A DNA stretch of 64,000 nucleotides, from the NCBI GenBank assembly GCA_009380025.1, contig WHSP01000002.1, positions 39,475 through 103,474 on the forward strand. Direction: 5' to 3'. Below, piece after piece: positions 46,784-53,499 of this stretch. Both the position numbers and the translations under genes were made by a program. Source of the DNA: Gemmatimonas sp. Lineage in GTDB: Bacteria > Gemmatimonadota > Gemmatimonadetes > Longimicrobiales > Longimicrobiaceae. The notes under the pieces are model-generated. The model was given only the letters and a program-made list of their open reading frames with translations, had not been told where the DNA came from and searched no databases. Every line of letters starts with the position of its first letter. Position 1 is the first letter of the stretch.

Positions 46784-47398
46784 TTGGTTGAAATCCGGAT
46801 CACTGTCTTCTCCGATTTCTCGTGCCCGCATTCGTATGTGACCGAGTCCGGCCTCCGGCGAATCCGCGAGCCCGGGTTGGAGATCGAATATCGGGCTTTC
46901 GAGCTCTATCCGGAGCCTTACCCGCTCCCGGACCGGCCTCTCGAGCCTCCGGAGTGGGAAGCGCTGAAGCGCCTGGCCGAAGTCGCTGAGATCCCCCTCA
47001 CCGAGCCCGGCTTCGTTCCTCGTACGACGAAGTCGCACGAAGCGTCTCGCTTCGCCCGGGAGAAGGATTGCGAGGCTGAGTTGCGGGCAAGAATCTTTGA
47101 CGCCTACTGGATCGATGGCCGAGATATCGGGCGAATCGACGTGTTGACGAGCGTCGCCGAGGGCGTGGGTCTCGACCCCGACGAACTGAAGATTGCCCTG
47201 GACATCGATCGCTACGCCGACGAAGTCGCGCACGATCAAGACGTCGCCCGGCACCTACGAGTTCCCGGCTCCCCAACCCTCTTCATCGGGACGGGAGCCT
47301 CCGCTCGCGTCGTCGTGGGCGCGCGCGATGCGCGCCAGCTCCGCCATTTGATCCACGATACTGCACGATCCTGGGCCCAACCACCCGACGATGGCTGA
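46784..47398 (+). CDS. DsbA-family (FrnE-like) thioredoxin-fold protein
   Basis: VEIRITVFSDFSCPHSYVTESGLRRI...TKSHEASRFAREKDCEAELRARIFDAYWIDGRDIGRIDVLTSVAEGVGLD...VPGSPTLFIG. Confidence 0.88.
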   Translation: MVEIRITVFSDFSCPHSYVTESGLRRIREPGLEIEYRAFELYPEPYPLPDRPLEPPEWEALKRLAEVAEIPLTEPGFVPRTTKSHEASRFAREKDCEAELRARIFDAYWIDGRDIGRIDVLTSVAEGVGLDPDELKIALDIDRYADEVAHDQDVARHLRVPGSPTLFIGTGASARVVVGARDARQLRHLIHDTARSWAQPPDDG

Positions 47399-47678
47399 CT
47401 ACGAGAGAAACACCGTTCTACCGATCTCCCAGGTCCTGGAACTCGCCGAAGAGATCCTGACGACCCGTGCCGGCCTCCAGCGCATGAAAGAAGATCATCA
47501 CAACGCCACCTACACCGGAGGGGAAGGAACAGTCGGTCTGGCGGCTCATCGACACGGGACGATGACTACGGTGACCATCCGGACCAATCAGCTCCGCACG
47601 TCCAAGGTGGACATCGTCGTACGGCATCTGATGAACCAGCTGCCGTACCAGCCGGGCGATCCAGGGCGGGAGTACTGA
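47391..47678 (+). CDS. Hypothetical protein (95 aa)
   Basis: Intact ORF overlapping the upstream DsbA-like gene by 8 bp. Confidence 0.6.
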   Translation: MADYERNTVLPISQVLELAEEILTTRAGLQRMKEDHHNATYTGGEGTVGLAAHRHGTMTTVTIRTNQLRTSKVDIVVRHLMNQLPYQPGDPGREY

Positions 47679-49498: not shown

Positions 49499-51145
49499 AT
49501 GCAATCGTTCGAAGATATCGGTCTTCGCGAAGAGCTCCTTCGCACGCTCGAAGAGGAGCCTTTCGGCGACCCCACCTCGCTCCAGCGGGCCGTGATTCCG
49601 GCCCTCCGGCGTGGTGGCAACCTCGCAGCACGCGCAAGCGCCGGCTCGGGGAAGACTCTTGCGTACACGCTAGGCGTGCTGGACGGAATCAGCGCTACTG
49701 CTGTAGAGGGTGGTGACGAACAGCCGTCCATGCGCGTTCTGGTGTTGGCGGCGACGCCAGGGCAAGCGGAAGGGATCGGCCTTTCGATGGTACCGTTCGC
49801 TCAGAGTGTCGACCTGCCTGTATCGGTGCTTGGAACGGGCTGGGGAACCACCCCTGACGATGCCGCAATCGTCGTTGCTGACGCTGCGACGATCATGCGT
49901 GCCGTTCGCGCTTCGGAGATCAAGCTCGATCGGCTCGAGGCCATCGTGGTCGATGGTGCGTCCGCCATACTCGAGCTGGGTGACTGGGAGAAGGTCGACG
50001 CCCTTCTCGACCTGATCCCGCGGGATGCCCAGCGGGTCGTTTTCTCGGCATCGTTCCCGGAACCCGTCGAGGATCTCATCGCAAGACGCGTCAAGCGAGC
50101 GCTCCGTTATCCAGCCGAGCCGGCCATCGCGGACGGGCCCAGCCATCAGCCCGGGGCCGGCGGCGTGGTCGGGTTCGTGATCGCGTCCGTGGTCCGCAAG
50201 CTGGCGATCTTGACACAGCAGCTCCGAGCGCGGAATCCGGAGGGCCCGCCGCCTACCATCTTCTGCCGGGACGAAGAGCGCGCGGCGGAGCTCACCGAGA
50301 GCCTGACGGTCCGTGGATTCCTCGTCGGAGCGCCGGGAGACGATGATGCCGACGTCGCGATCGCTGCCGACCCGTTCCTTCGCAAGGAGAGCGAAGCCGA
50401 CCTCGGCCAGACCATCAGCTTCGACGTGCCCCCCGATGTCGAGACGCTCCGCGCTCGACATGAGGGGGATCCGGATGCCATCGTCCTGCTCGAGCCCCGC
50501 GAGCTCGCTCATCTCCGGGAGGTGGCGCAACAGGCAGGGTTCGAGGCGCGATCGACCCCTCTGGATGAAGTGATCCCGGCCGTCGTGTCCGACCTCGATG
50601 GCTTCCGGACCGAGCTCCGAAAGGCGATCCTGGAGGAAGATCTCAGCGCCCAGATGCTGATCCTCGAGCCGCTGCTCGACGAGTTCACCGCAACGGAGGT
50701 CGCCGCAGCGACCGCCGCAATCCTGCGCCGTCGTCGCCCGCGCGATCGTGAAGCGGAGGCCCGCGCCGGAGACGTCGCACCCTCCCGCAAGGCCGAAGCC
50801 AAGAGCCCTTCGCCCGGCGCCGCACCCGTCACCTGGGCCCGTCTCTTCGTCAGCATCGGCAGCCGCGACGACGTCGGTCCCGGCGACCTGGTTGGTGCCT
50901 TCGCTGGCGAAGCCGATATCCCCGGATCTCGGATCGGCAAAATCGAGATCCGGGATAGCTTTTCGATCGTGGAAATTCAGGCCGACGTCGCCGAAAAGGT
51001 CATCCGGGCGGTGAATGGAACAACGCTGAAGGGCCGTAGCCTGCGTGTAGATTTCGATCGAGGAGGACCGCTTCGCCGCCCACCGGTCCGAGGCTCGGGG
51101 TCGCCCCGGCGGGCTACTCGGCGGCCTCCTCAAGGCGATCGCTGA
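49499..51145 (+). CDS. DEAD-box helicase-like protein with degenerate motifs and C-terminal DbpA-like RNA-binding domain
   Basis: Q motif and Walker A kept (PTSLQRAVIPALRRGGNLAARASAGSGKTLAY); motif II position reads IVVDGASAI; motif III FSASFP; no HRxGRxGR; C-terminus TWARLFVSIGSRDDVGPGDLVGAFAGEADIPGSRIGKIEIRDSFSIVEIQADVAEKVIRAVNGTTLKGRSLRVDF. Confidence 0.82.
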   Translation: MQSFEDIGLREELLRTLEEEPFGDPTSLQRAVIPALRRGGNLAARASAGSGKTLAYTLGVLDGISATAVEGGDEQPSMRVLVLAATPGQAEGIGLSMVPFAQSVDLPVSVLGTGWGTTPDDAAIVVADAATIMRAVRASEIKLDRLEAIVVDGASAILELGDWEKVDALLDLIPRDAQRVVFSASFPEPVEDLIARRVKRALRYPAEPAIADGPSHQPGAGGVVGFVIASVVRKLAILTQQLRARNPEGPPPTIFCRDEERAAELTESLTVRGFLVGAPGDDDADVAIAADPFLRKESEADLGQTISFDVPPDVETLRARHEGDPDAIVLLEPRELAHLREVAQQAGFEARSTPLDEVIPAVVSDLDGFRTELRKAILEEDLSAQMLILEPLLDEFTATEVAAATAAILRRRRPRDREAEARAGDVAPSRKAEAKSPSPGAAPVTWARLFVSIGSRDDVGPGDLVGAFAGEADIPGSRIGKIEIRDSFSIVEIQADVAEKVIRAVNGTTLKGRSLRVDFDRGGPLRRPPVRGSGSPRRATRRPPQGDR

Positions 51146-51750: not shown

Positions 51751-52035
51751 TCAGTTGACCGCGTCCTTGAGGCCCTTGCCGGCACGGAACGCAGCGCTGG
51801 TCGATGCGCCGATTCTGATCTCCTTGCCCGTGCGTGGGTTACGACCCGTGCGAGCTTCCCGTTTCCGGGATTCGAAAACGCCGAAGCCGGTGATCTGCAC
51901 CTTCTCCCCACTCTTGAGCGCCCTGGCGATGATCCCGTCATCGACGGAAAATAATGCGTCCACAGCCCGCGACGCCTCAGCCTTGCTGAGGTTGGTGCGC
52001 TCGGCAAGCTTCTGAGTGAGTTCCGATTTGTTCAC
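51751..52035 (-). CDS. hup: HU-family DNA-binding protein
   Basis: MNKSELTQKLAERTNLSKAEASRAVDALFSVDDGIIARALKSGEKVQITGFGVFESRKREARTGRNPRTGKEIRIGASTSAAFRAGKGLKDAVN (GTG start). Confidence 0.97.
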   Translation of the reverse strand: MNKSELTQKLAERTNLSKAEASRAVDALFSVDDGIIARALKSGEKVQITGFGVFESRKREARTGRNPRTGKEIRIGASTSAAFRAGKGLKDAVN

Positions 52036-52143
52036 CGCGGGCCTCCTGGCTGGAGTTGTAGGAAAACGCAGCAAAATCAACGGCAGCGCCGCTACGCCAC
52101 CAACAGTACGGGGGGGGCGCAATCCCGTCAAGAGAGAGTTCTT

Positions 52144-53499
52144 GTGCCTGTTGAGCCGCATTTAAGGCCGGCTATGCCGTTTGCAAGCGTGCGCGAACTG
52201 AGAATCGCGGGCGAGATCGCCCAGGCGTTTCTCACCGCCCGGCGACCCATCGAGGTGTACCGCATGGCCCTCGAACGCGTCGCACCTCTGGTCGGCGCCG
52301 CCTTCGCTTGCGTCTTCCTCCGGGACGACGACCCTGAGCTCCTACGCGTCGTCACCGCCTACAATTGGCCCCAGCGATACGCCAACTACCTCGGCTCGAT
52401 GCGCGTCCGAGTCGGAAATGGGCCGACCGGCCGCGCCGTCTTCGAGAACCGGCTCATCGATGTCGAAGACGTTTTCGCCGATCCGGAGCTCTCCGACTGG
52501 TGGGACTCCGCGAAGGAGCTCCGTTTCAAGTCCGCGATCGCGCTTCCGCTGATCGTCGGCGAAGCGCCGCTCGGCTCCCTGACGTTCTATTACCGCGATC
52601 ACGACGCCTTTCGGGAAACCGATCGCGGGTTGCTGAAGCTGGTCGCGGATCAGCTCGCCGCCACGGCCGACAAGGCCCGCCTGATCGAACATCTGGAACA
52701 GATGAACGCCGAGCTGGCCGAGCGGAACAGCGAGCTGGAAGCGCGACAGAGGGAAGCCGAAAACGCGATGCGGATTCGGACCGAGTTCCTGGTCAACGTC
52801 TCTCACGAGCTACGCACTCCCCTGACGGCGATGCTCGGGTATGCCTTCATGCTCAAGGAGGGCCTCACCGGTCGGCTCAGCGACGCGCAGGCCGGCACGG
52901 TGGCCAAACTGGAGGTCGCGGGTCGTGAGCTCGTCAGCCTCATCAACGGGTTGATGGACTTGACGAGCCTCAAGCTAGGACACATGCACGCAAAGCGAAC
53001 TCTCTGCGATGCGATCGCCATGACGCGCGCCGCCTTCGGCGACATGCCCAGCCCAACGGACGGGGTCGAGTTGAAGCTCCAGATTCCAGACGGGTCGATC
53101 CCGATCCATACTGATCCGGCGCTCGTCCACCGCGTCCTCCAGAACCTCCTCGACAACGCGGTGAAGTTCACGAGCGAGGGAAGCATCACGGTTCGCCTCC
53201 GGATTGATCCGGAGAAGGAGGTCGAAGGAAGGCGGTCGCGAGGTGGAGAAGTCGTCTGGGAAGTGGCCGACACCGGAATCGGGGTGGATCCGAAGAACCA
53301 CGAGCTGATCTTCGAGGAGTTCCGCCAAGCGGACGGGTCGGCGACGAGGAGTTACGTCGGGGCGGGTCTGGGGCTCGCCGTCGCACGCGGTCTGGCGGGC
53401 AGGCTGGGTGGGGAAATCGGCGTCGAATCCGAACCGGGTAAGGGCTCGGTCTTCTCCCTCCGGCTCCCGTCTTCGGTGATCCGATTGGGGGCCCGCTGA
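52144..53499 (+). CDS. GAF-domain sensor histidine kinase
   Basis: N-terminal GAF; H-box FLVNVSHELRTPLTAMLGYAFML; N-box VLQNLLDNAVKFTSEGSITVRL; VADTGIGVDP; GAGLGLAVARGLAGRLGGEIGVESEPGKGSVFSL. Confidence 0.95.
   Translation: MPVEPHLRPAMPFASVRELRIAGEIAQAFLTARRPIEVYRMALERVAPLVGAAFACVFLRDDDPELLRVVTAYNWPQRYANYLGSMRVRVGNGPTGRAVFENRLIDVEDVFADPELSDWWDSAKELRFKSAIALPLIVGEAPLGSLTFYYRDHDAFRETDRGLLKLVADQLAATADKARLIEHLEQMNAELAERNSELEARQREAENAMRIRTEFLVNVSHELRTPLTAMLGYAFMLKEGLTGRLSDAQAGTVAKLEVAGRELVSLINGLMDLTSLKLGHMHAKRTLCDAIAMTRAAFGDMPSPTDGVELKLQIPDGSIPIHTDPALVHRVLQNLLDNAVKFTSEGSITVRLRIDPEKEVEGRRSRGGEVVWEVADTGIGVDPKNHELIFEEFRQADGSATRSYVGAGLGLAVARGLAGRLGGEIGVESEPGKGSVFSLRLPSSVIRLGAR

Follow-up and report, generated by a model that had tools for sequence, protein, structure and literature searches.

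A degenerate DEAD-box helicase relative with a DbpA-type RNA-binding domain in Gemmatimonadota

The window, i.e., the complete stretch of 64,000 nucleotides of Gemmatimonas sp. that was analyzed here, harbors the gene of a 548-aa pseudo-DEAD-box protein (P0001) in which a degenerate helicase core is combined with a DbpA-type RNA-binding domain (RBD; Table 1). Judged from its sequence, P0001 lacks both the catalytic glutamate of motif II and the arginine finger of motif VI by which an active DEAD-box RNA helicase is defined. Orthologs are present in 109 of 119 genomes evenly drawn from its class of Gemmatimonadota, according to a hand count from tables that includes a few contig-edge fragments. 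The conservation of the helicase fold, the loss of the catalytic motifs and the signature of selection characterize the members of this family as putative pseudohelicases. The protein is probably an ancient DeaD duplicate that turned into an ATP-independent RNP scaffold or chaperone.

Domain structure and motif degeneration

The reading frame of P0001 is uninterrupted from the ATG to the stop codon, as the original prediction of a full-length gene without frameshift had stated. Pfam recognizes the DEAD domain (PF00270, 3e-14) at residues 26–193 and the DbpA RBD (PF03880, 8.4e-24) at residues 448–517, the latter with 83.8 bits at a gathering threshold of 25.6, which confirms the predicted type of RNA-binding domain. 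PF03880 is matched by all 25 orthologs of the profile alignment, and the PDB matches of the P0001 RBD are the RBDs of DbpA, YxiN and DeaD. The guanine-contacting backbone motif IGxI, which recognizes guanine in YxiN and Hera (PMC3695512), is conserved, and its glycine is found in 56 of 56 orthologs; for the proposed binding to 23S rRNA hairpin 92 the check covered this motif. The DeaD dimerization domain PF25399 scores 0.002 at residues 367–417 (18.6 bits, under the threshold of 23); it is matched at E<0.01 in 10 of the 25 orthologs and is by Pfam absent from most members, and the corresponding segment shows 35% identity between families. The best NCBIfam match of P0001 is DbpA with 131.6 bits, far under the cut-off of 524 bits, and an Rfam search of the whole window gave no match.

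Table 1. Location of P0001, its domains, its motif sites and two neighboring genes in the window
Feature	Position	Strand	Evidence and remarks
95-aa conserved protein, family not assigned	47391..47678	+	Neighbor comparison; Na:Ala symporter gene between it and the pseudo-helicase gene here
Pseudo-DEAD-box protein P0001, 548 aa	49499..51145	+	ORF (ATG 49499, stop ends 51145), Pfam, orthologs
Degenerate RecA1 domain, residues 1–208	49499..50122	+	PF00270 match; profile match to 5IVL
Walker A ASAGSGKT, kept	49634..49657	+	Alignment to L079; lysine kept in families f1 and f9 only
Motif Ia site, ATPGQ instead of PTREL	49751..49765	+	Alignment to L079
Motif II site, DGAS instead of DEAD	49952..49963	+	Alignment to L079 and orthologs
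Motif III site, SAS instead of SAT	50045..50053	+	Alignment to L079 and orthologs
Degenerate RecA2 domain, residues 209–364, motifs V and VI lost	50123..50590	+	Alignments; profile match to 5IVL
Motif VI site, LRARHEGD, without arginine finger	50447..50470	+	Alignment to L079 and orthologs
DeaD-dimerization-like helical segment, residues 365–420	50591..50758	+	PF25399 sub-threshold; aligned to CshA C-terminal region (5IVL)
DbpA-type RBD, residues 444–521	50828..51061	+	PF03880 8.4e-24; PDB matches; IGxI
Arg-rich basic tail, residues 522–548, net charge +7	51062..51142	+	Sequence composition
HU-family DNA-binding protein gene, convergent neighbor	51751..52161	-	PF00216; synteny

A profile of the 25 orthologs matches chain residues 1–425 of 429 of the CshA crystal structure 5IVL (E 1.4e-55). 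Because this match runs end to end, RecA2 and the dimerization segment appear to be present though degenerate, and P0001 has, by profile homology, a tandem RecA fold. Structure prediction, which had been proposed as a check, was uninformative for the core: AlphaFold confidence was low outside the RBD, with a mean pLDDT of 42 and 46 for single-sequence and two-sequence inputs. These core models are unreliable, and the fold assignment of the core thus rests on the profile alignment.

The motifs were compared with those of the intact DeaD paralog of the same genome (L079, contig C113), namely AATGTGKT, PTREL, DEAD, SAT, TDVAARG and HRIGRVGR. This alignment confirmed the initial readings of a retained Walker A, of replaced motifs Ia, II and III and of an absent motif VI. 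It also revealed the substitution of TPGR by DAAT in motif Ib, of TDVAARG by ADPFLRK in motif V and, in a gapped alignment, of HRIGRVGR by RARHEGDP in motif VI. The Q-motif glutamine (Q29) and the first aspartate of motif II (D152) are retained in P0001. Its motif losses recur in every ortholog group tested and are not due to chance.

The extent of degeneration was counted in an aligned subset of 56 orthologs from seven host families (f1, f2, f3, f4, f6, f7 and f9). This check for intact DEAD and HRxGRxGR motifs upheld the original prediction: the catalytic glutamate is missing in 55 orthologs and the second arginine of motif VI in 54, the second and third arginines each being present in only two. 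The Q-motif glutamine is found in 37 of the 56 sequences and the Walker lysine in 13, all from f1 and f9; it is lost in f2, f3, f4, f6 and f7. Retention of Walker A is hence true for P0001, but as a general feature it applies to only two of the seven aligned families. The Q-motif glutamine and the P-loop are conserved in f1 and f9, and nearly all members of these two families have kept the first aspartate of motif II as well. One pseudo-helicase of f4 (L068 in G083) exhibits DEAD at the motif II site while its other motifs are lost, which represents either a reversion or chance. ATP-driven strand separation is not expected of P0001-type proteins, which have lost the catalytic glutamate and the arginine finger as well as the residues by which motifs Ia and Ib contact RNA.

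Distribution, origin and selection

Matches to P0001 were found in all 61 relatives' genomes searched, in a few of them only to other DEAD-box proteins. A DbpA RBD is present in 106 of the 119 class genomes, and 100 genomes contain a degenerate RBD-bearing copy. An intact DeaD gene, defined by at least 55% identity to L079, occurs in 22 genomes, 21 of them with a PF03880 match; an intact DeaD-RBD gene is thus present in only about 21 of the 119 genomes. It coexists with a degenerate RBD-bearing copy in 15 genomes, and in six the RBD is found on the intact enzyme only, their degenerate copy being devoid of it. Three more f7 genomes without any RBD contain a degenerate copy that lacks the domain. 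As an active DbpA-type helicase is absent from most genomes, the pseudo-helicase is usually their sole DbpA-RBD protein. Among separately read, previously unaligned copies, 39 of 40 fetched loci proved to be degenerate, and the single intact gene (G154) stems from outside the 119 genomes. The DbpA domain was not found in the sampled sister class (f11, five genomes), nor in family f5. A DeaD-like active helicase in G133 (G133:C8:12510-13907) has no detectable DbpA domain, and neither helicase of the pair has one in this genome.

In a tree with active helicases all 56 pseudo-helicases form one clade with an SH-aLRT of 100, and its subclades correspond to the host families. A single origin and a vertical spread of the pseudo-helicase are documented on these phylogenetic grounds. 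The clade is separate from active DeaD and adjoins the class's own DeaD clade, a placement that long branches could distort. The loss of the glutamate and of motif VI is common to all families and hence most simply regarded as ancestral. About four independent losses were counted for the Walker lysine (Dollo counting on the tree, no regain), as would be expected once ATP turnover no longer matters.

Pairwise dN/dS values of close pairs, obtained by Nei and Gojobori counting, range from 0.07 to 0.29 for the whole gene and from 0.06 to 0.31 for the dead core, documenting purifying selection at the codon level. Together with the motif losses in the orthologs, they lend support to the proposal of a selected, ATPase-impaired helicase relative. 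The core identity between families is 27% and 22% for the pseudo-helicases versus 65% and 66% for active DeaD, and that of the RBD 47% versus 51%. Identities and dN/dS values thus suggest that the core was freed of catalytic constraint, yet not of all constraint, and that the constraint on the RBD was kept.

The original prediction of an RBD kept beside a dead helicase holds for P0001, but not for nine f7 genomes (L197–L205), in which the RBD behind the dead core and its dimer-like segment is replaced by an Arg/Gly/Pro-rich tail (16–25 arginines within the last 90 residues). This loss occurred three or four separate times, the tree of core columns requiring four changes (bootstrap range 3–4), and the core is present in all f7 genomes examined, whether the RBD is kept or not. 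Both the degeneration of the core and its persistence where the RBD was lost are evident from the alignments. Since the core stayed while the RBD was lost repeatedly, the dead core itself is probably functional, and to regard the protein as an RNA-binding domain to which a dead appendage is attached would be an oversimplification. The core outlasting the RBD in f7 is the strongest argument that it would have a job of its own. Compensation by an intact DeaD was considered as well, but DeaD is present in six of nine RBD-less and in eight of 11 RBD-bearing f7 genomes, without any pattern.

The gene neighborhood is also partly conserved. In f1 to f3 the pseudo-helicase gene comes after the genes of a DsbA-like protein and of a protein of about 95 aa. 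The DsbA-like gene of the window (46784–47398, plus strand; no NCBIfam match) lies upstream of that of the 95-aa protein, for which neither a Pfam nor an NCBIfam match was found. The sequence of the latter is conserved and linked to the pseudo-helicase in f1, f2 and f3, and more distant relatives are located nearby in f4 and f9. In most f2 and f3 genomes the small gene adjoins or overlaps the pseudo-helicase gene, the distance lying between -53 and +19 in most cases; these overlaps are approximate, as the first start codon was taken as the start. A convergent HU gene is situated downstream in six families (f1, f2, f3, f4, f6 and f9), and genes resembling those of thymidine kinase and CoaE (named by eye from sequence) follow in f6 and f7. 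In 12 of 14 f3 neighborhoods (L122–L128, L147–L149, L151 and L152) the gene of an intact DEAD-box helicase, without RBD and similar to RhlE in length, is located within about 3–8 kb of the pseudo-helicase gene. Conserved neighbors of this kind are leads on partnership, not proof.

Proposed role and alternative explanations

Nearly all relatives in the class have retained the dead motor as a functional component, which argues for a job other than ATP-burning RNA unwinding. We propose that a duplicate of a DeaD-type (DbpA-RBD) helicase would have lost the residues for ATP hydrolysis and strand separation in the ancestor of the Gemmatimonadota class, and would then have been kept as an ATP-independent RNP scaffold or chaperone. 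An RNA may be held by the C-terminal RBD or, in some lineages, by the Arg-rich tail, and the dead tandem-RecA core without canonical RNA-contact residues would provide a protein-binding platform. A dimer could be formed via the DeaD-like helical segment. In f1, including the window protein, and in f9 ATP may bind to the P-loop as a switch without turnover. The net charge of the core is about -26 in f1, -16 in f3 and -14 in f4 versus +2 in active enzymes, and f9 and part of the f7 members show little or no acidic character. The acidic core of f1, f3 and f4 speaks against RNA lying on the core and for a protein-binding role. RNA binding, dimerization and scaffolding are what we infer, and that the bound RNA might be rRNA or a ribosome-assembly intermediate is a guess. 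It is conceivable, if rather doubtful, that the class-wide protein assumed a role in RNA assembly for which an ATP-driven DbpA/DeaD helicase is required elsewhere, so that in most members a DbpA-domain protein would exist without a DbpA-type ATPase.

A scaffold or chaperone is favored, and the regulation of an active helicase by partnership is ranked second. The dead protein would then heterodimerize with, recruit or restrain an active DEAD-box enzyme, i.e., DeaD in genomes that have it and an RhlE-like enzyme in the others. The retained DeaD-dimer-like segment and the helicase close by in f3 would fit such a role, which we nevertheless regard as unlikely: the RhlE-like linkage is confined to f3 and missing from the neighborhoods of other families, and in f7 the RBD was lost irrespective of whether DeaD is present. 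An obligate heterodimer with DeaD is ruled out, because most genomes with a pseudo-helicase are without an intact DeaD-RBD gene.

A sensor or switch that binds ATP without hydrolysis, its affinity for RNA or a partner changing with the ATP level, would agree with the nucleotide-binding residues conserved in f1 and f9, but it is improbable as a family-wide explanation: given about four independent losses of the Walker lysine, affecting f2, f3, f4, f6 and f7, the function that the family conserves cannot consist in ATP binding. Some P-loop proteins have their catalytic residue at unusual positions, and a helicase that still hydrolyzes ATP through replaced residues would be in line with the intact Walker A and Q motif of f1. 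We consider this highly improbable, as the motif VI finger, motif III and the Ia/Ib contacts are gone and most of the clade has no P-loop. A decaying pseudogene or an annotation artifact in the source genome, which the motif losses by themselves would fit, is practically ruled out, given that the reading frame is open in about 100 of the sampled genomes, that dN/dS stays well below 1 and that the clade is single and deep.

Relation to known systems and significance

The order of RecA1, RecA2, dimer-like segment and RBD is the same as in DeaD/CsdA-type and DbpA/YxiN helicases (PF00270, PF00271 and PF03880), and the RBD of the pseudo-helicase is 40% identical to the DeaD RBDs of the class. Unlike these enzymes, P0001 is devoid of the catalytic motifs Ia, Ib, II, III, V and VI. 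A conserved DEAD-box fold without working motifs and a motif-independent role, which for P0001 we infer, are also known from Utp25/Def, a pseudohelicase of the eukaryotic SSU processome (PMC9539457). The likeness is one of kind only, since Utp25 is eukaryotic, carries an N-terminal instead of a C-terminal extension and has no DbpA RBD. The PriA pseudohelicase of Deinococcus (PMC4504706) is likewise bacterial and reported to be still conserved despite the loss of helicase function; it differs as a replication-restart DNA helicase outside the DEAD-box family and without RBD. Hera of T. thermophilus shares the RecA core, the dimerization domain, the RBD and the Arg-rich C-terminal tail, but it is an active ATPase and unwindase; without ATP, its affinity for RNA depends mainly on the RBD and the tail (PMC3695512).

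No prior description of the P0001 family was found in the open-access papers searched. Pseudo-enzymes are well studied among kinases and, to our knowledge, hardly among bacterial RNA helicases. The family described here is a large DEAD-box clade of free-living bacteria that is inherited vertically and, judged from its motifs, has lost catalysis. Surveys that demand all conserved motifs, e.g., PMC8190605, would omit such proteins. Their natural variants separate the parts of the protein, with the P-loop kept or lost and the RBD kept or lost, so that the role of a DEAD-box core without ATP hydrolysis can be addressed.
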